Below, piece by piece: positions 14,311-23,383 of a stretch of DNA of 40,640 nucleotides (position 1 is its first letter; the number at the start of each line of letters is the position of its first letter). The notes beneath the pieces are model-generated. The model made no database searches. It was not told the origin of the DNA and saw nothing but the letters and a program-made list of their open reading frames with translations. The translations under genes were made by a program, and so were the position numbers. The DNA lies in IMG/VR virus record IMGVR_UViG_3300025141_007622, positions 1 to 40,640 of that record; one strand, 5' to 3'. This DNA is from a virus.

Positions 14311-15522
14311 ATGTCATCAACTTATACATCTAGATTAAAACTAGAACGTCAAGGATCTGGAGAAAACTCAGGTAATTGGGGTAATCTTGTTAATTATGTT
14401 TTCAATAGAGTTGACTGTTCAGTAAAAGGTTATCAAGCAGCTAACGTTGCTGGAAATGCAAATGTTACTTTAACTTCAGCTAATTCAACAACTAATACAG
14501 ATGATTCTTCTACAGATGATCAAGTACATAATGCTGTATTAGAATTTACTGGTGCTTTAACAGCTAATATTCATGTTTTTACAGATGCTGTAGAAACTAA
14601 ATATACAGTATTTAATAATACATCAGGTTCGTATTCTTTAACATTTGCAAATACTGGTCATGCAGCAAATGGTGTAGCTCTTAAACAAGGTGCTAAAACT
14701 TTAGTATATTCAACTGGGTCTAAAATTAATGATATAATGGGTGATCTAGGAGACATTACTTCAGATTCAATTACTCCTGGTTCAGTTAATTTTGCAGATA
14801 ATGCAGGAATTAATGATGCAGCAGGAAATGAACAAATGATTTTTTCTCAAACAGCTTCTGCAGTTAATTATTTAGATATTACTAATGCAGCTGCTAATAA
14901 TGCTCCTTCAATTACTGCTGGAGGCAGTGATTCTAATGTAAGTCTTAATTTAGTTCCAAAAGGATCAGGTGTTTTACAAGGTGATGGTTCTGCAGTCAAA
15001 ATTGCAGGAAAAGAAACTATGTGGATACCAGCTCCAGCGATGTATGCTCCAACAACTAATCCAGCGGATGCTGCATTAGTAGAAACAACAGCAACAAGAC
15101 CAGATTTAAAAGTATTTGATTTTGATGCTAGTACAGCCCAATACACTCAATTTTCTGTGGCTATGCCCAAATCATGGAATTTAGGAACAGTAACATATCA
15201 AGTTTTTTGGTCTCCAAGCACAACTAATACAGGTAATTGTATATTTGGATTACAAGGAGTTTCTTGTGCTGATGGTGATACTATTGATGTTGCTTATGGA
15301 ACAGCAGTAGAAGTTACAGATGCAGGAATTGGAACAGTAGAAGATCAACAAGTAACAGCTGAAAGTGGTGCAATAACAATTGCTGGTTCACCTGCGGATG
15401 ATGAACAAACTTATTTTCAATTATATAGAGATGCAGCAGATGGTAGCGATACTTTTACTGGAGAGGCAAGAGTTCTAGGTATTAAAATATTCTATACTAC
15501 TGATGCAGCAAATGACGCATAA
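14311..15522 (+). CDS. Tail fibre protein
   Basis: The 403-residue product has the N-terminal pattern typical of marine phage fibres: SSTYTSRLKLERQGSGENSG (2-21), then NWGNLVNYVFNRVD. The rest is Thr/Asn/Ala-rich, with strands separated by turns (YTVFNNTSGSYSLTFANTG, then SLNLVPKGSGVLQGDGSAV, a segment that resembles fibre repeats). The C-terminal about 120 residues (VFWSPSTTNTGNCIFGLQG and onward) look like a compact beta domain, possibly for receptor binding or trimer closure. It precedes a glycine-rich adhesin-like protein and a small Trp-rich protein, together forming the receptor-recognition set. Confidence 0.8.
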   Translation: MSSTYTSRLKLERQGSGENSGNWGNLVNYVFNRVDCSVKGYQAANVAGNANVTLTSANSTTNTDDSSTDDQVHNAVLEFTGALTANIHVFTDAVETKYTVFNNTSGSYSLTFANTGHAANGVALKQGAKTLVYSTGSKINDIMGDLGDITSDSITPGSVNFADNAGINDAAGNEQMIFSQTASAVNYLDITNAAANNAPSITAGGSDSNVSLNLVPKGSGVLQGDGSAVKIAGKETMWIPAPAMYAPTTNPADAALVETTATRPDLKVFDFDASTAQYTQFSVAMPKSWNLGTVTYQVFWSPSTTNTGNCIFGLQGVSCADGDTIDVAYGTAVEVTDAGIGTVEDQQVTAESGAITIAGSPADDEQTYFQLYRDAADGSDTFTGEARVLGIKIFYTTDAANDA

Positions 15523-15534
15523 GGAGAATAGAAC

Positions 15535-16404
15535 ATGGCAAATTTTGGTTATCAAATATTAGGTTTCGGATCCGGCGGCTCAGCCAAAACAATGGAGTTT
15601 GATTATTTAGTTATCGCTGGCGGTGGCGGCGGCGGTGTAGATGATGGCGGCGGCGGAGGAGCTGGCGGTTTTAGAACAAGTTTTCCCGGAGGAACAAAAG
15701 TAGAAGTAGCAAGTGGATCCACAGTTACAGTCGGAGGCGGCGGTATTGGTGGTACTCATTCTGGAACTCCAGAAGGAGCAGATGGAGGAGACGGCAAGAC
15801 TGGTGTTGGAGGAGGAATTTCTTCAAGCGGTGGTGGAGGCGGTGGACCTCCTGGTCAAAATGGATCTCCTGGTGGTTCCGGAGGCGGCGGTGCTTTAAAT
15901 GGTAATGGCGGATCTGGAAATAAAGGTGGCTATCCTACTCCCGAAGGTAACGATGGTGGAGGTGGATCATCTTATAATAATTCTGGCGCTGGCGGCGGAG
16001 GAAAAGGTGCTGTTGGACAAGATAGACAAGGAACTGGAAGCGGCGGAAACGGCGGATCTGGAAGCTCAAATTCCATAACAGGCTCATCAGTAACTTATGC
16101 TGGAGGCGGCGGTGGAGGATCTAATGTTTCTCATACTGCAAGCGGCGGATCTGGCGGCGGTGGCACTGGTGGCAATAGATCAAATGGTACTAACCAAGCT
16201 GGTGACGATGGTAAAGGTGGCGGCGGAGGCGGTGGCCCTGGAGGATCACCTGTAAGAAATGGATCAGCTGGCGGAAATGGTGTTGTAGTTTTAAGAGATC
16301 CAAGTGGTGAAACCTTAACAGTATCACCTGGTTCTAATACTACAGGAACTGATGGTGGCGCAACTTACGCAATATTTAATGAAACTGGCACAATAGAGTT
16401 TTAA
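15535..16404 (+). CDS. Glycine-rich adhesin-like tail protein
   Basis: The 289-residue protein is dominated by glycine. Runs of four to seven Gly alternate with Ser/Asn/Thr turns, in the style of polyglycine-sandwich adhesins (T4-like gp38-type) and the Gly-rich domain of other phage tail proteins. The N-terminus MANFGYQILGFGSGGSAK, the strand MEFDYLVIAGGGGGG (20-34) and AGGFRTSFPGG (43-53) match such domains. A collagen-like GPPGQNGSPGG lies at residues 104-114. Codon choice shifts to GGC/GGT/GGA in tandem, raising GC locally compared with its neighbours. It probably sits at a fibre tip and contacts the host receptor. Replication slippage could alter its length. Confidence 0.8.
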   Translation: MANFGYQILGFGSGGSAKTMEFDYLVIAGGGGGGVDDGGGGGAGGFRTSFPGGTKVEVASGSTVTVGGGGIGGTHSGTPEGADGGDGKTGVGGGISSSGGGGGGPPGQNGSPGGSGGGGALNGNGGSGNKGGYPTPEGNDGGGGSSYNNSGAGGGGKGAVGQDRQGTGSGGNGGSGSSNSITGSSVTYAGGGGGGSNVSHTASGGSGGGGTGGNRSNGTNQAGDDGKGGGGGGGPGGSPVRNGSAGGNGVVVLRDPSGETLTVSPGSNTTGTDGGATYAIFNETGTIEF

Positions 16405-16406
16405 TT

Positions 16407-16850
16407 ATGTCTAAAAAAGCTGCAAGAATAGAAAAAGAACAAGATCCATTTAATGTTGGTCAAATAAGATGGGTGTGTGTTAATGTAATAGTTATTGAAG
16501 ATTCAATAGATGATGTTCATAATTATTGCAACAATATATTAAAATTAGGTGGCACTTGGAAAGATGGAACTAATGGTGGAGGAAAAGGATCTGTTTGGTT
16601 GGAATCTAAAAATAAATTTATTGCACCACAACCTTATGCTTCATGGTCTTTAAATAATTCAACTGATATATGGGAAGCTCCAATTACAAAACCAGCAAAT
16701 CCTACATTTTCACATACTGAAGGTGAGGAAGTAGATACTTATTTAATGACTTGGAATGAAACTGATCAAAGATGGGAAGGTTTAAATAGAGAAAATAATA
16801 ATAATTATTATTGGAACCCTACTGATTCTAGCTGGAATTTAATTACATAA
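16407..16850 (+). CDS. Trp/Asn-rich tail-associated protein, 147 aa
   Basis: The 147-residue product contains the motif NKFIAPQPYASWSLNNSTDIW (68-88, quoted here as two overlapping halves: NKFIAPQPYASW and SWSLNNSTDIW), then EAPITKPANPTFSH and a Trp/Tyr/Asn-rich end (TDQRWEGLNRENNNNYYWNP). The pattern F.APQPY.SW.L….W.AP….P….W.E….W is common in small proteins next to marine phage fibres. It is thought to be a tail or fibre-assembly component, with no activity known. Its stop codon is inside the following hairpin. Confidence 0.7.
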   Translation: MSKKAARIEKEQDPFNVGQIRWVCVNVIVIEDSIDDVHNYCNNILKLGGTWKDGTNGGGKGSVWLESKNKFIAPQPYASWSLNNSTDIWEAPITKPANPTFSHTEGEEVDTYLMTWNETDQRWEGLNRENNNNYYWNPTDSSWNLIT

Positions 16851-16875
16851 TTGATATAGATCAATTCTTTTTATT
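16849..16875 (+). terminator. Hairpin with T-rich tail at the edge of the oxygenase island
   Basis: AATTGAT (16849-16855) pairs with ATCAATT (16860-16866) around an ATAG loop, followed by CTTTTTATTT. It is a terminator-like signal at the end of the tail-fibre genes. The stem is AU-rich with only two G-C pairs at most, so the efficiency may be low. Downstream at 16880-16891 is TTTACTTTATAT, which also occurs at 35505-35516 in the early promoter region. Confidence 0.55.
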
Positions 16876-16913: not shown

Positions 16914-17525
16914 GTGTTGTATTATAAAGATTTATATTGGTATTTTAACAAAGCTTTATCACCTAAAATTTGTGATAAAATAATTAAATTTGGTAAAAAA
17001 AATAAATTAAAAGAAGGAAGAATTGGATCTTTTCCTGATAAAAAATTTAAAGTATTAACTAAAAATCAAAGAAAAATATTAAAAGATAAAAGAGATTCAA
17101 AAGTTAGTTTTATAGATGAAAAATGGCTTTATGATTTACTTTTTCCTTATGTTCATACTGCTAATAAATTAGCTTCATGGAATTTTAAAGTTGATTGGTC
17201 GGAACCTATTCAATTTACAGAATATAAAGATAATCAATTTTATGATTGGCATAGTGATTCTGGATCTGAAAACCAATCTAATAATAAAATAAGAAAACTA
17301 TCACTTGTAGCTTCACTTGCTGATCCTAAAAAATATAAAGGAGGAGAATTTGAATTTCAATTTAGAAATTTAGATGATCCAACTCTTATTACTAAAGCTC
17401 CTCAACTAAAACCTAGAGGTAGTATTGTTGTATTTCCTTCTTATTTATATCATAGAGTAAAACCAATTTTAAAAGGAACAAGATATTCAATAGTTATGTG
17501 GGTTAGTGGATATCCTTATCAATAG
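16914..17525 (+). CDS. 2OG-Fe(II) dioxygenase 1 (PKHD/PiuC-like)
   Basis: It is predicted to use 2-oxoglutarate, O2 and Fe(II) to hydroxylate a substrate. The 203-residue protein keeps the double-stranded beta-helix signature: H113 and D115 in YDWHSDSGS, YKGGEFEF (141-148), the distal H180 in SYLYHRVKP, and R190 in GTRYSIVMW that binds the 2OG carboxylate. The order matches PKHD-type hydroxylases of the YbiX/PiuC group. The start is GTG at 16914 without a clear ribosome binding site, and a TTG follows at once, so the exact start is uncertain. It is first of six such genes. The substrate is unknown. Confidence 0.87.
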   Translation: MLYYKDLYWYFNKALSPKICDKIIKFGKKNKLKEGRIGSFPDKKFKVLTKNQRKILKDKRDSKVSFIDEKWLYDLLFPYVHTANKLASWNFKVDWSEPIQFTEYKDNQFYDWHSDSGSENQSNNKIRKLSLVASLADPKKYKGGEFEFQFRNLDDPTLITKAPQLKPRGSIVVFPSYLYHRVKPILKGTRYSIVMWVSGYPYQ

Positions 17526-17526
17526 T

Positions 17527-18033
17527 ATGTTTACAAATTGGAATCATAATAGATATATTCATATTAAAAATTTTGTAAAAGAAAAAGAATTTTTTAAAAT
17601 TAAAAAAGATTTAATAAATAATTTTAAATATTATCCACATCCTGATAAATTAAAATCAGGAAGACAAACTACTAATAATTTATATGAAGTATTTTGTCAT
17701 AAAAAACATTGGCAAAATTATTTTAGTAAATTAGCAGAGATTATGACTGATCTAGGTAAAGAAAGATTATCTAAATGTTGGTCCTTAAAAATAAATAAAC
17801 ATGAAAAACATTTTTTACATAGACATCCAGAAAATAATTATACAAGTGTATTTTATTTAAGTAATGAAAATTATGAATTAGGAACACGTTTAATAGATAA
17901 TAATAATGAAATAATAATACCGGGATATGAAAACTCTATGTTAATTTTCGAAGGAAAAATACTTCATGACGCAGTTTTTCCTAAATACAAATTAAAAAAA
18001 CCAAGATATACTTTAATAACCGATTATGAATAA
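17527..18033 (+). CDS. 2OG-Fe(II) oxygenase-like protein 2 (HxH type)
   Basis: I place the start at the ATG at 17527, one base after the preceding stop, rather than at an in-frame GTG 21 bases upstream. The 168-residue protein contains FLHRHPENNYTSVFYLS (H98 and H100), then SMLIFEGKILHDAVFP with H147, and PRYTLITDYE with R160. This fits the family of putative 2OG-Fe(II) oxygenases in which the first motif reads H-x-H-P….SG/SVFYL, here with T-S in place of S-G. The N-terminal half is basic and helical. Activity is inferred from the retained residues. The substrate is unknown. Confidence 0.75.
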   Translation: MFTNWNHNRYIHIKNFVKEKEFFKIKKDLINNFKYYPHPDKLKSGRQTTNNLYEVFCHKKHWQNYFSKLAEIMTDLGKERLSKCWSLKINKHEKHFLHRHPENNYTSVFYLSNENYELGTRLIDNNNEIIIPGYENSMLIFEGKILHDAVFPKYKLKKPRYTLITDYE

Positions 18034-18676
18034 ATTTAAAAAAAATAAATATACTATTGTAAGAAAAGGAATTGATCCTAAACTTGCAGATTTTTTAACT
18101 GAATATTTATTTTTAAAAAAAGAAGTTTCTAATACTTTATTTAAATTAAATTGTTTACCACCACATCTTAAAGGACTGTATGGAACTTTTAATGATCCGC
18201 AGGTACCTAATTCTTATGCTATGTATAGTGATATAGCTAATGAAGTTTTATTAAAAAGAATTAAACCTATTATGGAAAAAAATACAGGTTTAAAACTTGT
18301 AGAAACTTATTCTTATGCAAGAATTTATCAAAAAGGAAATATACTTAAAAGACATAAAGATAGAGCTTCTTGTGAAATATCCACCACACTTAATTTAGGA
18401 GGAGATCCGTGGCCTGTTTATTTAGACCCAACAGGTGAACATAATAAAAAAGGAATTAAAGTAAATCTTAACCCAGGAGATATGTTAATATATTCCGGTT
18501 GTGATATTGAACATTGGAGAGAACCTTTTAAAGGAAAGCATTGTGTTCAAGTTTTCCTACATTATAATATAAAGAATAAAAAGAGTATGAAATATGATGG
18601 AAGAATTCATTTAGGATTACCTTCTATTCAAAATGTTTCAATTTTTGATAAGAAAAATGATTTTTTTATAATATGA
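18026..18676 (+). CDS. 2OG-Fe(II) dioxygenase-like protein 3
   Basis: The 216-residue protein overlaps the previous gene by eight bases. The metal site is visible as KRHKDRASC (H110 and D112) and GDMLIYSGCDIEHWREPFKG (residues 151-170), which carries the distal H163. The typical Arg for 2OG binding is not obvious: QVFLHYN follows in the place where it is expected, as in related phage proteins. The segment YARIYQKGNILKRHKDRAS, followed by LNLGGDPWPVYLD, is common to oxygenase-like genes of cyanophages and other marine phages. The C-terminal 40 residues are an extra tail. Substrate unknown. Confidence 0.82.
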   Translation: MNKFKKNKYTIVRKGIDPKLADFLTEYLFLKKEVSNTLFKLNCLPPHLKGLYGTFNDPQVPNSYAMYSDIANEVLLKRIKPIMEKNTGLKLVETYSYARIYQKGNILKRHKDRASCEISTTLNLGGDPWPVYLDPTGEHNKKGIKVNLNPGDMLIYSGCDIEHWREPFKGKHCVQVFLHYNIKNKKSMKYDGRIHLGLPSIQNVSIFDKKNDFFII

Positions 18677-19263
18677 AAGAATATAGACAAAATAAAAAAA
18701 ATAATTTTATTGCTGGGTGGTATATTAAGAAAAAAATATGTGATGATTTAATTAAATATTATGAAAAATCTAAAGATAAACGTGACGGATCTTGTCATTA
18801 TCAAGGTGTTACAGGAGTATATAAAGCAATTAAAGATTCAAGTGATTTAGCACTTTCTCCTGCTTTAAACGACACCATACCTGTTAATTACCTGAATGCT
18901 GTAAGTAAAGTAGTAGATGAATATAAATCAAAATATTGTTACAGTGATTATATGCAAAGCAACTGGAAAATTGTAGAGAATTATAATGTACAAAAATATG
19001 AACCTAAAGGTGGTTTTAAAAGATATCATTTTGAAAGAAGTGGTACCACAGATAAAGCTGCTTTTAGACATTTAGTTTTTATGACATATTTAAATGATGT
19101 TAAAGACAAAGGAGAAACTGAATTTTTTTATCAAAAATTAAAAGTTAAACCAGAAAAAGGTTTAACTTTAATATGGCCAGCTGATTGGACTTTTACACAT
19201 AGGGGAATTCCATCATCAACCGAAGTTAAATATATTGCAACAGGGTGGTATAGTTATGTCTAA
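18673..19263 (+). CDS. 2OG-Fe(II) dioxygenase 4 (prolyl-4-hydroxylase-like)
   Basis: The 196-residue protein starts in an ATGA overlap with the preceding gene. It contains YEPKGGFKRYHFERSG with H119 and E121 as first metal ligands (HxE rather than the commoner HxD), then FMTYLNDVKDKGETEFFYQ, and KGLTLIWPADWTFTHRGIPS with H176. K186 in EVKYIATGW takes the 2OG-binding place. The arrangement is that of the prolyl-4-hydroxylase-like group. The target may be a protein, but free substrates are possible. It is distantly similar to the proteins at 19256 and 20293, which share HxE and FTHxHRG-like motifs. Confidence 0.85.
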   Translation: MKEYRQNKKNNFIAGWYIKKKICDDLIKYYEKSKDKRDGSCHYQGVTGVYKAIKDSSDLALSPALNDTIPVNYLNAVSKVVDEYKSKYCYSDYMQSNWKIVENYNVQKYEPKGGFKRYHFERSGTTDKAAFRHLVFMTYLNDVKDKGETEFFYQKLKVKPEKGLTLIWPADWTFTHRGIPSSTEVKYIATGWYSYV

Positions 19264-19774
19264 AAATTTTATATTAGAAAAAAATAATTTTTTATCTAAA
19301 GAAGAATGCGATATATTAATTAAGGATTTGAAAGATAAAGTTAAACCAGCAGAAGAAAAAGAACAAGGTTATGATTTTTTTGATTTAGAAGGAACTCCTA
19401 TTTTTAATCAAATACAACAAAGATTATTTCCTATATGGAATGAGTATATGACTGCATTTCCAGAAGTTAATTTAACTACAAATAAATGGTCATTAACTCA
19501 TATGAGATTTAAAAAATTTAAACCAGGTAAGTATTTTATAAAATTTCATTCAGAACATAGTTATAGACATTCAACAAGGCTTTTAAATATACAGATGTAT
19601 TTAAGTAATCATAATTGTGGCACAGAATTTTATAATGGTACAGTGGTTAAATCAGAAAAAGGTAAAGTAGCTATTTTTCCATCTTATTTTACACACACCC
19701 ATAGAGGACAGAAATGTCCAGATAATAAAACAAGATATTTAATAACAGGTTATACTAATTTTTTAAATTTATAA
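19256..19774 (+). CDS. 2OG-Fe(II) dioxygenase 5 (paralogue A)
   Basis: I choose the ATG at 19256, which overlaps the preceding stop by eight bases, rather than a TTG 21 bases upstream. The 172-residue protein has H98 and E100 in KFHSEHSYRHSTR, CGTEFYNG (121-128), H149 in YFTHTHRGQ, and R160 in NKTRYLITGY. The gene at 20293 encodes a clear paralogue with the same residues at the same positions (98, 100, 149, 160). They differ most in the N-terminal 75 residues. The tandem copies are separated by the unrelated oxygenase gene at 19776, so a duplication followed by insertion, or reordering, has happened. Substrate unknown. Confidence 0.86.
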   Translation: MSKNFILEKNNFLSKEECDILIKDLKDKVKPAEEKEQGYDFFDLEGTPIFNQIQQRLFPIWNEYMTAFPEVNLTTNKWSLTHMRFKKFKPGKYFIKFHSEHSYRHSTRLLNIQMYLSNHNCGTEFYNGTVVKSEKGKVAIFPSYFTHTHRGQKCPDNKTRYLITGYTNFLNL

Positions 19775-19775
19775 T

Positions 19776-20291
19776 ATGAATGCAATAGTAGTAGATAATT
19801 TTTTTAATAATTATAATAATATTAAAGATTACTTTAAAAAGATTCCTTTATATGATTTAGAGGCTTATAACAAAAAATTTAAACAAAAGCAAACGTGGCC
19901 TGGTCAAAGAAGTCCAGATATACTTAAATACAATCCTTGTTTATATAATCTAATTTTAAAGGAATTTTTTGATAAATTTAACATAGGTGTAAATCATATT
20001 TTAATGGATGCTTTTATTCACTTACGTTTAGAAAAAGATGAGATACATGATTGGATTCATCAAGATAGTGCAAGAGGACATACTCATACTTTAATAGTTT
20101 ACTTATCAGAAACAAATCTAAATTCAGGAACTATATTGTATAACGATGAACACCAACCAACAACGACTGTTAATTTTGTACAAAATAGAGCTTTTTTATT
20201 TAAATCAGAATTATGGCATAGTTCTTTAAATAATCATGGTAATAATATAGAAGATGGAAGATTAACATTAAATTGTTTTTTAAAACTGTAA
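19776..20291 (+). CDS. 2OG-Fe(II) oxygenase-like protein 6 (DUF6445-like)
   Basis: The 171-residue product carries TWPGQRSPD (40-48), DWIHQDSARG with H95 and D97, the strand HTLIVYLSETNLNSGTILY, and AFLFKSELWHSSLN with H148, ending in GRLTLNCFLKL with R162. The WPG-R motif, HxD site and GxxxY strand match the DUF6445-type oxygenase-like proteins seen in cyanophages. It lies between two paralogues of another oxygenase subgroup. The gaps on either side are one base, so the island is a single translation unit. Substrate unknown. Confidence 0.82.
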   Translation: MNAIVVDNFFNNYNNIKDYFKKIPLYDLEAYNKKFKQKQTWPGQRSPDILKYNPCLYNLILKEFFDKFNIGVNHILMDAFIHLRLEKDEIHDWIHQDSARGHTHTLIVYLSETNLNSGTILYNDEHQPTTTVNFVQNRAFLFKSELWHSSLNNHGNNIEDGRLTLNCFLKL

Positions 20292-20292
20292 T

Positions 20293-20820
20293 ATGAAAAA
20301 AAACTTTATCGCTGTAAAAAAAGAATTTATAACAAAAGCTCAATGTAAATCATTAATAAAATCTTTAGATAAAAATTTAATTAAAGATGATAATGAAGAT
20401 TCTAATTATTTTTTTAAAGATATTAAAGATAAAAAAATACAGAAATTAATAGTTAAAAAAGGCCTAGAAATGATACAAAAATATTGTTCTTATTATCCAG
20501 AATTGAATATGACAAAAGATAAGTGGGCAATGACTTCTTTAAGGTTTAAAAAATTTGAACCAGGATCTTCTTTTAATAGATGGCATTCAGAACATTGTGG
20601 TAAATATTCAACAAGAATAATGGTATTTCAACTATACTTATCGGATCATAATTGTGGGACAGAATTTTTTAGTGGAGAACTGGTTCAGTCTACAGCAGGA
20701 AGAGCTATACTTTTTCCAGCTTATTTTACTCATACACATCGAGGTCAAGTATGTCCTCAAAATAAAACTAGATATATAATTACTGGATATTATAATTTTA
20801 TTTCGTTAGTTCCGAAATAA
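20293..20820 (+). CDS. 2OG-Fe(II) dioxygenase 7th-slot partner (paralogue B of the gene at 19256)
   Basis: This is the sixth and last gene of the island. The 175-residue protein has H98 and E100 in RWHSEHCGKYSTR, CGTEFFSG (121-128), H149 in YFTHTHRGQ and R160 in NKTRYIITGY, exactly co-linear with the protein at 19256; by eye roughly half of the residues in the core are the same. Its N-terminal 75 residues diverge. Its 3' end overlaps the leftward gene at 20798 by 23 bases. Both copies keep the complete metal and 2OG site, which argues that both are under selection, perhaps with different substrates. Confidence 0.86.
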   Translation: MKKNFIAVKKEFITKAQCKSLIKSLDKNLIKDDNEDSNYFFKDIKDKKIQKLIVKKGLEMIQKYCSYYPELNMTKDKWAMTSLRFKKFEPGSSFNRWHSEHCGKYSTRIMVFQLYLSDHNCGTEFFSGELVQSTAGRAILFPAYFTHTHRGQVCPQNKTRYIITGYYNFISLVPK

Positions 20821-21096: not shown

Positions 21097-22941
21097 ATGC
21101 CATTAACAAAGTTAAATTTTCAACCTGGATTAGATACAGAAAACACAGAAACTGGTGCTGAAGGTAGATGGATTGACGGAGATAAAATCCGATTTCGTAA
21201 AGGACTTCCTCAAAAAATAGGAGGCTGGAATAAATTTAGTCAAGATTATTATGTAGGAGTAGGAAGAGCTTTAGAACAGTGGTTTGCTTTAACTGGAGCT
21301 AGATATGAAGCTCTAGGAACTGATCGAAAAGTATATGTATATCAAGCTGGGGATAATCAAGATATTACTCCTATAAGAGAAACTGCTAATTTAGTAAATG
21401 CTTTTACTACAACTAATACAAGTGCTAATGTTACTATTTCAGATACTTCACATGGAGCGACAGTAGGAGATTTTGTAACTTTAAGTAGTACAAGTACATC
21501 AGTTGGAGGAATTCCAGCTGCAACTTTAGATGCTGAATATGAAATATTATCTGTTACTAATGTTGATGCTTATGTAATTCAAAGTAACGCAACAGCTACT
21601 TCAACAATAGGACCAACAGGAAATTGTACTGCTACTTATCAATTAAATGTAGGACCAAGTGAACAAATATTTGGATATGGTTGGGGAGCAGGAACTTGGA
21701 GTGCAAGTACATGGGGAACTCCTAGAAGTACCTCTAATGTAACTTTAGATATGAGATTGTGGTCTATAAATAATTGGGGAGAAGATTTAATTATTACTCA
21801 AAAAGATGGTAGAACTTATGAATGGGATTTATCAGGAGGAATGACAGGTAATAGAGCTACAGTAGTTGCTAATGCTCCGACTAAATCAACTTTATCAATG
21901 ATATCTACAGAAACTAGACACGTAGTTTGTATGGGTACAGAAACAACTATTGGTGATACATCAACTCAAGATAAAATGTTTATTCGTTGGTCTGATCAAG
22001 AAGCATATAATTATTGGACTCCTAATGTAACTAATTCAGCAGGTTCACAAAGAATAGCAGGAGGAAGTGAAATTAGATGTGCACGTCCTGCTAAAGGAAC
22101 TATTCTAGTATGGACAGATACTACTATGCAATCAATGTCATTTATTGGTCCTCCTTTTATATTTGGTTTTAGACAATTAGGTAATGATTGTGGAGCTGTA
22201 GGTCTTAATTCTGCAATAGTAATAGATGATATAGCTTATTGGATGTCCGATGGACAATTCTTTAGATATGCAGGTGCTGTTCAAGAAATACCTTGTCCAG
22301 TATTAAATCATGTATTTGATGATATAAATAAAGTTCAATATCCTCAAGTTTATGCTGCACAAAACTCTAATTTCTCTGAAGTAATTTGGTATTATCCTTC
22401 TAGTTCTTCATCTCAATGTGATAGATATGTAATGTATAATTATTTAGAAAACTCTTGGTGTTTTGGTACTATGAATAGAAGTACATATCAAGATAATGGA
22501 GTTGAATTAAACCCTTTAGCTAGTGAATATTCAAATACTTCTACAGCTAATACTTATATTCAAATTAATGGTTTAACAGCAGGTAGAAGTTTAATTTATA
22601 GAATGGAAAATGGAGTAGATGCTGATGGATCAGCATTAGCAGCATATATTCAATCTGGAGATGGTGATTTAGCAGATGGTGAACAATTTATGTTTATAAA
22701 TAAAATTATACCAGATTTTCAAAATCAAACAGGAAATGCTCTAATTACTTTAACTACTAGGGATTATCCTTATGGTAATACTACTGTTGGTGAAACTGTC
22801 GCAGTAAGCAACACAACAGGGTTTATTAATACTCGAATCCGTGGTAGACAATCTAATATAAAAATAGAAAATACAGCAATTGGAGACAATTGGAGATTTG
22901 GAACTTTAAGAGTTAATTTAAGAGCTGATGGAAAACGATAA
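21097..22941 (+). CDS. Tail nozzle-like protein (P22 gp10-like)
   Basis: The 614-residue protein is predicted to form the lower part of the short tail, through which DNA leaves. It starts with LTKLNFQPGLDTENTETGAE (3-22) and GRWIDGDKIRFRKGLPQKIGGW, a hallmark opening of nozzle proteins in podovirus-like phages. Propeller-like repeats follow (LWSINNWGEDLIITQKDGRT, then MFIRWSDQEAYNYWTPNVTN). Residues about 105-180 are a Thr/Ser-rich insert, and residues 193-209 carry GYGWGAGTWSASTWGTP, also found in the tail protein at 13362. The C-terminal 80 residues are beta-rich. The gene follows the leftward gene and hairpin, so it likely has its own promoter. Confidence 0.82.
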   Translation: MPLTKLNFQPGLDTENTETGAEGRWIDGDKIRFRKGLPQKIGGWNKFSQDYYVGVGRALEQWFALTGARYEALGTDRKVYVYQAGDNQDITPIRETANLVNAFTTTNTSANVTISDTSHGATVGDFVTLSSTSTSVGGIPAATLDAEYEILSVTNVDAYVIQSNATATSTIGPTGNCTATYQLNVGPSEQIFGYGWGAGTWSASTWGTPRSTSNVTLDMRLWSINNWGEDLIITQKDGRTYEWDLSGGMTGNRATVVANAPTKSTLSMISTETRHVVCMGTETTIGDTSTQDKMFIRWSDQEAYNYWTPNVTNSAGSQRIAGGSEIRCARPAKGTILVWTDTTMQSMSFIGPPFIFGFRQLGNDCGAVGLNSAIVIDDIAYWMSDGQFFRYAGAVQEIPCPVLNHVFDDINKVQYPQVYAAQNSNFSEVIWYYPSSSSSQCDRYVMYNYLENSWCFGTMNRSTYQDNGVELNPLASEYSNTSTANTYIQINGLTAGRSLIYRMENGVDADGSALAAYIQSGDGDLADGEQFMFINKIIPDFQNQTGNALITLTTRDYPYGNTTVGETVAVSNTTGFINTRIRGRQSNIKIENTAIGDNWRFGTLRVNLRADGKR

Positions 22942-23383
22942 ATATAAAATACGAAAAGCACAGATTTCTGATGCTGTTCGAATAAGAGAACTATTAAAAA
23001 CATGGTTAATAGAGGCTCCTTTTAACTTTGGAAATACTAATAATAAAAAAGCATTAGAAAATATAGTATTTTACATTAAGAATAGTTTTGTTATAGTAGT
23101 AGAATATGAAAATATTATTGTAGGAACATTAGCTGCAACAGTAGATGAAACGTGGTATAGTGATAAAAAGTTTATGAGAACTTTATGGTTACATGTAAGT
23201 CCACAACATCGAAGATTTAGCATTTTTCGTTCTTTAATGATAGTATTTAAGGAGTATGCATTAGCTAATAAAGTTACAGCTATATGTGAAATATTCCAAG
23301 GTAAAGATGTTGAAAGAAAAAACAATGCCTTTATTAAATTAGGATTTAAAGTTATAGGAGGAACTTTTATAGTCAATGGGTAG
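22928..23383 (+). CDS. GNAT-family acetyltransferase
   Basis: It is predicted to transfer an acyl group from acyl-CoA to an amine. The 151-residue length suits GNAT. The N-terminal YKIRKAQISDAVRIRELL (5-22) matches motif C/D of the fold, IIVGTLAATVDE gives the central strand, WLHVSPQHRRFSIFRSLM (87-104) corresponds to the CoA-binding motif A (V-x-P-x-x-R/H-x-x-x-x-x-x-L, with a degenerate Q/R-x-x-G/A signature), and RKNNAFIKLGFKVIGGTFI (129-147) is the C-terminal motif B. It overlaps the nozzle gene by 14 bases and the next gene by eight. GNAT genes at this spot are known in podovirus-like phages. The substrate is unknown. Confidence 0.8.
   Translation: MENDKYKIRKAQISDAVRIRELLKTWLIEAPFNFGNTNNKKALENIVFYIKNSFVIVVEYENIIVGTLAATVDETWYSDKKFMRTLWLHVSPQHRRFSIFRSLMIVFKEYALANKVTAICEIFQGKDVERKNNAFIKLGFKVIGGTFIVNG

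Follow-up and report, generated by a model that had tools for sequence, protein, structure and literature searches.

The stretch of viral DNA analysed here, hereafter the window, is the 40,640-base IMG/VR record IMGVR_UViG_3300025141_007622, which comes from an HTVC023P/CRP-902-like podovirus. Its portal, GroES, capsid, tail and nozzle genes are ordered as in CRP-902 and HTVC023P, and its portal and nozzle proteins are 42-49% and 35-40% identical, respectively, to those of HTVC023P, HTVC027P and CRP-902; no complete PolA was identified within the window. Between a group of tail-fibre genes, which ends with the gene of a tryptophan-motif protein (W164), and the nozzle gene, positions 16914-20820 of the + strand hold an island of seven consecutive, intact and tightly packed open reading frames (ORFs), G1 to G7, all of the 2-oxoglutarate (2OG)-Fe(II) oxygenase type (Table 1). 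An earlier note on this DNA had the coordinates, the intact frames, the packing and the catalytic motifs right, but counted six genes. It merged G5 and G7, because G5, if started at its eighth codon (an ATG), has the residue numbers of G7 (H98/E100/H149/R160). The sites it gave for G2 also hold, but were numbered from an internal ATG; Table 1 counts from the GTG start. The island is near-identical in three further IMG/VR records (L002, L003 and, in part, L090; labels of this form denote contigs or regions retrieved for comparison), and it is therefore no assembly chimera.

Table 1. Genes of the 2OG island and of its flanks in the window
Feature	Coordinates	Strand	Type or role	Metal- and 2OG-site residues, matches and remarks
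G1	16914..17525	+	2OG-Fe(II) oxygenase, PKHD/PiuC-like	H113, D115, H180, R190
G2	17506..18033	+	2OG oxygenase, HxH type	H105, H107, H154, R167; internal ATG start possible
G3	18026..18676	+	predicted 2OG hydroxylase, elsewhere 'ferrochelatase'	H110, D112, H163
G4	18673..19263	+	prolyl-4-hydroxylase-like 2OG oxygenase	H119, E121, H176, K186
G5	19235..19774	+	prolyl-4-hydroxylase-like HxE oxygenase, G7 paralogue	H105, E107, H156, R167
G6	19776..20291	+	DUF6445-type 2OG oxygenase	H95, D97, H148, R162
G7	20293..20820	+	prolyl-4-hydroxylase-like HxE oxygenase, G5 paralogue	H98, E100, H149, R160
Tail-fibre-like gene	14311..15522	+	left boundary of the site	phrog_12796 tail fiber, E 1e-5
Glycine-rich tail protein	15535..16404	+	candidate substrate or context	phrog_2295, E 3e-32; 39% Gly, 4% Pro
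W164, tryptophan-motif protein	16407..16850	+	end of tail-fibre group; candidate substrate	
Small reverse ORF, 72 amino acids	20798..21016	-	right edge of the island	
Nozzle/tail stabilisation-type gene	21097..22941	+	right boundary; survey anchor	phrog_3287, E 1.6e-81

Profile searches against Pfam and PHROG families, which had been proposed as a check, return all seven genes as 2OG-type, with G3, which has no Pfam match, being identified through its fold. G1 matches 2OG-FeII_Oxy_3 (PF13640, E 4.5e-15), phrog_61 and, in the PDB, the PKHD hydroxylase 3dkq (E 2e-7), while G4 matches the same Pfam family (E 3.9e-9), phrog_61 and the prolyl-4-hydroxylase (P4H) 5c5t (E 1.4e-4). G5 and G7 fall slightly under the cut-off for Oxy_3 and match phrog_61 (E 6.6e-24 and 9e-22). 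G2 matches phrog_81 (E 2.6e-8) and also phrog_274, its PF13759 match (E 7e-4) lying below the cut-off, and G6 matches DUF6445 (PF20043) with 35.3 bits for a cut-off of 24. Among solved structures, those closest to G1, G3 and G4 are of prolyl/PKHD-type hydroxylases, including the P. putida P4H complexed with EF-Tu. The island thus does contain the claimed four or more subgroups, but there has been some duplication within it: G5 and G7 are paralogues with 47% identity across 172 amino acids, and G4, G5 and G7 are mutually related (BLASTP E 5e-9 to 5e-60).

All seven proteins have the HxD/E(H)...H metal triad of the 2OG-Fe(II) oxygenase superfamily. We aligned each family separately (52-133 sequences each). 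The first and last metal histidines are kept in at least 58/59 sequences in every family, and the acidic metal residue is (nearly) invariant except in the G4 family, where the position is E in 81, D in 10 and G in 2 of 93 sequences; G2 has HxH instead. The H/D/H triad is present in 133/133 sequences of the G1 family and H110, D112 and H163 in 123/123 of the G3 family; H105, H154 and R167 occur in all 64 of the G2 family, and the G6 family keeps H95 and H148 in 52/52 and D97 in 51/52. The basic residue about ten positions after the last histidine is a near-invariant R or K in G1, G2, G4, G5 and G7, and R162 of G6 is found in only 37/52 sequences. G3 has no basic residue at this usual 2OG position. 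It has invariant R99, R113 and R165, one of which may substitute for it.

The G3 protein matches phrog_2954, named 'ferrochelatase' (E 3e-50). Its AlphaFold model (mean predicted local distance difference test [pLDDT] 89.9, from a 40-sequence alignment) is a double-stranded beta helix; the earlier note had asked for a structure prediction of each gene, and the assignment of the other six comes from profile matches. A Foldseek comparison of this model with the PDB gave 726 matches at E <= 0.001, with PHD/P4H enzymes as the best (6t8m, E 7e-9; 4iw3, E 9e-9), and a sequence search of the PDB with the G3 profile returned nothing relevant, only the fold comparison giving matches. The P. putida P4H and the HIF-type PHDs are thus like G3 in fold, but share only 10-18% sequence identity with it, and G3 lacks their usual basic 2OG-binding residue. 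The motif R-x-Y...HxDR...EHWR...Q-x-F-x-H runs through an alignment of nine sequences, made up of G3, seven published 'ferrochelatases' and a protein of S-CAM8, with a single R-to-N change in EHWR. The Pfam ferrochelatase domain is absent from G3 and from the six published 'ferrochelatases' that were scanned. We therefore reject a ferrochelatase identity for G3, given the lack of a domain match, the prolyl-hydroxylase-type fold and the invariant HxD...H. Judged by motif and modelled fold, the PHROG 2954 family, which includes the 'ferrochelatases' of pelagiphages and cyanophages, is predicted to consist of 2OG hydroxylases. Such proteins are read as ferrochelatases in passages of PMC9599517 and PMC11561400, and the correction touches the arguments made there for haem/iron metabolism and seasonal auxiliary genes.

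The PHROG 274 name 'DNA endonuclease V' also looks wrong, because this family matches G2 and G6 as well as proteins so named that lack the domain. Three phage proteins called denV or 'DNA endonuclease V' (L286:6344-6829, L270:12231-12740, L275:4698-5177) have no endonuclease V domain in Pfam; they align with G2/G6 with the HxD/H...R pattern, one of them with a weak 2OG Pfam match.

The survey of relatives took the nozzle gene, and no 2OG gene, as its anchor. It drew on the 80 best relatives and covered 79 loci (L141-L219); all are close relatives (nozzle identity of at least 77%) and they are not fully independent, e.g., L141 hardly differs from the window, and L184 and L185 share one layout. 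The gap between the fibre/W164 genes and the nozzle gene contains at least one 2OG gene in 35 of the 37 contigs with a visible boundary and at least three in 29, with a maximum of eight. These 37 contigs hold 149 2OG genes inside the gap, against 3 among the 287 genes elsewhere. This gap is a dedicated 2OG site, which agrees with the earlier description of the genes as cargo lying between those of the tail fibre and the nozzle. That note would have abandoned the idea of a system had the genes never been found together elsewhere. G1 to G5 do occur together: about 20 further contigs carry them in this order, some with the whole block turned round, and L005 has eight 2OG genes consecutively. Among cultured phages, 2OG genes occupy the same site in HTVC023P, HTVC027P (reversed) and 023Pt_psg01, and lie in the tail-fibre region of HTVC033P. 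A bacterial-host origin was rejected: a genome scan for G3 gave only 15 loci, mostly on contigs with this phage arrangement, and they are thus mostly infected cells or bins. One region binned as Flavobacteriaceae (L298:1-7766) has W164 followed by about eleven nearly consecutive 2OG-type genes, exceeding the island of the window.

The island moves separately from its surroundings. L014, L015 and L019 share with L020 a 2.83-kb G1-G5 block of 89-90% DNA identity in the opposite orientation, whereas the flanks are only about 71-79% identical. Ratios of nonsynonymous to synonymous substitution (dN/dS) of 0.14-0.27 for G1-G5 indicate purifying selection. We measured co-variation as the correlation (rho) of pairwise identities between genes. 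Backbone genes to the left (w12923, fibre1 and w13362) and to the right (the nozzle) of the island co-vary with rho 0.83-0.87 (w12923-nozzle 0.85, fibre1-nozzle 0.83), and island genes co-vary among themselves with 0.79-0.82 (G1-G3 0.82). Values between island and backbone are 0.07-0.22 for G1/G3-nozzle (G3-nozzle 0.12) and 0.10 for G3-w12923. Of the flanking genes tested, W164 alone clearly follows the island, with 0.43-0.50 in 15-17 contigs (W164-G3 0.50) and a W164-G3 value of 0.57 over 43 contigs (p 0.0005 by permutation). This value is still 0.57 after removing the nozzle, and nozzle-G3 given W164 is -0.04. Distance alone does not explain the link between W164 and G3, because G3 often adjoins the nozzle. 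Since the island tracks only W164 and itself, and not the co-varying backbone, it is an exchangeable cassette, inherited apart from the phage backbone and partly together with W164.

Whole 2OG islands are inverted between the same flanks in L014, L015, L018, L019, L022, L066, L155, L171, L172, L175, L181, L184, L185 and L201. Inverted repeats of the phage-invertase kind at the island edges of the window did not exceed chance AT-rich matches, and counts of promoters and terminators were the same as in shuffled sequence. A weak hairpin near 16848-16870 was noticed by eye only and is excluded from these counts.

W164 belongs to a family that is widespread in the tail-fibre gene groups of marine podo- and myoviruses. 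Six residues (W80, W89, P92, P96, W116, W123) are invariant in 27 relatives, and the protein is modelled as all-beta (pLDDT 92.4), a predicted fold with no match in the PDB. An obligate partnership of W164 with 2OG enzymes was rejected, many phages having W164 without 2OG genes. Nor is a pair of collagen and prolyl hydroxylase supported for the glycine-rich protein, whose glycines come in runs, with little proline and no proline-rich Gly-X-Y repeats. The site also houses other enzymes. We re-examined 58 frames of island regions that the first profiles had missed: 20-21 are further 2OG_Oxy_5/phrog_81 proteins, which makes several of the neighbours listed as 'unknowns' 2OG genes as well, and the rest include six tryptophan halogenases, four carbamoyltransferases, two JmjC_2 proteins and one match each for a sulfotransferase, an APS-kinase and a methyltransferase.

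The island and its swapping suggest that the virus may chemically decorate the tip of its tail or the surface of its host. Our tentative preference is for the first, i.e., that the islands of HTVC023P-like podoviruses are an exchangeable cassette, at one fixed site, of iron/2OG hydroxylases that would tailor tail-tip proteins post-translationally. The enzymes would hydroxylate side chains of adjacently encoded proteins (W164, the glycine-rich protein or a fibre) while the virion is assembled. Sister islands could go further, their carbamoyltransferase, sulfotransferase or tryptophan halogenase elaborating the hydroxyl or indole groups. Differing enzyme sets would then give differing tail-tip chemistry and a fast-changing receptor-binding surface. 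We favour this reading because of the persistent fibre-side position in unrelated phages, the co-variation with W164 and the halogenase, carbamoyltransferase and sulfotransferase genes found alongside. A broader version, in which hydroxylases, tryptophan halogenases, carbamoyltransferases and sulfotransferases form a modular system diversifying the conserved tryptophan-motif protein across marine podo- and myoviruses, we regard as doubtful; if true, modular tailoring would be a post-translational counterpart to the genetic diversification of receptor-binding proteins.

Several observations weigh against tail-tip tailoring. W164 occurs in eight sampled phage regions in which no 2OG gene was found nearby (HTVC025P, CRP-207, Greip, zth2-2, Melnitz-3, phiPsal1, Bellamy and ctn9Y15), and therefore does not need the enzymes. 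The islands are not universal either, because CRP-902 has the site but no 2OG genes in it and DSL-LC04 has a single one. The nozzle, too, co-varies with W164 (rho 0.26 over 43 contigs and about 0.48 over 17), and adjacency and joint exchange can possibly reflect one shared recombination segment. Inverted islands are transcribed against the direction of the fibre genes, an arrangement that suits a separate function equally well. We know of no hydroxylated virion residues, and sequence similarity among 2OG enzymes is a poor predictor of their substrate.

The inverted islands also fit the strongest rival, in which the host is modified instead (lipopolysaccharide, lipids, surface or ribosomal proteins), e.g., to block superinfection, and the tail site merely offers convenient late expression, for they imply a transcription unit apart from the tail genes. 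Bacterial 2OG enzymes hydroxylate ribosomal proteins and EF-Tu, and 4iw3, cited with the known EF-Tu hydroxylation, is among the fold matches of G3; moreover, the carbamoyltransferases and sulfotransferases present at the site also tailor glycans in other systems. Host modification predicts neither the persistent placement at the fibre end in podo- and myoviruses nor the co-variation with W164, and we consider it rather unlikely. Slightly less probable still is a recombination hotspot gathering unrelated metabolic cargo with no joint function. The strongly variable content, unrelated enzymes included, and the tolerance of inversion would be expected of such a hotspot, but the membership of 149 site genes in one superfamily, the G1-G5 order kept in about 20 contigs, the low dN/dS and the strong G1-G3 co-variation would not. 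An auxiliary metabolic role, through draw-down of 2-oxoglutarate or in iron/haem metabolism, has been proposed for cyanophages and pelagiphages in passages of Sullivan 2010 (PMC3037559), Wittmers 2022 (PMC9599517) and PMC12753301. It appears improbable here: the 'ferrochelatase' partner behind the haem link is itself a predicted 2OG enzyme, a single enzyme would suffice for 2OG consumption, and neither the diversity nor the site is explained. DNA or nucleotide modification or repair, an older suggestion for cyanophage 2OG genes (passages of PMC3037559 and PMC9146016) to which the PHROGs label DNA endonuclease V of some relatives would lend support, is very improbable, the genes lying in the tail module and not among replication genes, and the three proteins named endonuclease V being 2OG-like and without that Pfam domain. 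An exchangeable site tied to one tail-module protein makes the function of phage 2OG genes directly testable on cultured phages.

Few accessory genes are as common in marine phages as those of 2OG oxygenases. The view that a contiguous set of six is unusual does not survive comparison, since Pelagibacter myophages have six (Mosig) and five (HTVC008M) consecutive 2OG-type genes and the cyanophage S-SM1 has at least four in a run, all beside tail-fibre or neck genes. Mosig and HTVC008M differ from the window in gene order and phage family; HTVC008M also has W164, and its 2OG run opposes the tail genes. A W164 homologue directly adjoins several 2OG genes in the cyanophages S-SM1, P-RSM4, S-SSM5 and S-CAM8, the last three of which have a G3-type gene adjoining W164 as well as a carbamoyltransferase, but these clusters lie in T4-like genomes and are less similar in sequence. 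As many as 24 2OG genes are given for S-SCSM1 in a passage of PMC9602691.

Nor are the clusters undescribed in this phage type. Passages of Wittmers et al. 2022 (PMC9599517) report eight distinct co-located 2OG genes in HTVC023P-type pelagiphages, with the same gene families and a 'ferrochelatase' beside a 2OG gene, and HTVC023P gp65-gp71 lie at the same site as the island, before the nozzle gene. In that account, the 2OG genes are nearby but non-adjacent and the ferrochelatase is taken at face value, whereas the window has seven adjacent genes and the partner is a predicted 2OG enzyme; the passages make no mention of a fixed site, of inversion, of exchange independent of the backbone or of other tailoring enzymes. 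In the parts of the open-access literature covered, we found no description of a dedicated exchangeable site or of the 'ferrochelatase' correction. Clustering of 2OG genes was thus already known, and the dedicated exchangeable site and the correction of PHROG 2954 are apparently new.

The likely host of the virus is SAR11, because two Pelagibacteraceae single-cell contigs (AG-404-L13 and AG-422-I02; L290 and L291) bear phages in which fibre, W164, 2OG and nozzle genes are arranged in the same way. Many relatives have, where the site ends on the right, a reverse ORF of 70-82 amino acids, like that of the window, with weak family matches below the cut-off. Directly after the nozzle, at 22928-23383, the window encodes a GNAT-type acetyltransferase, which may likewise serve as a modifying enzyme of the tail module.

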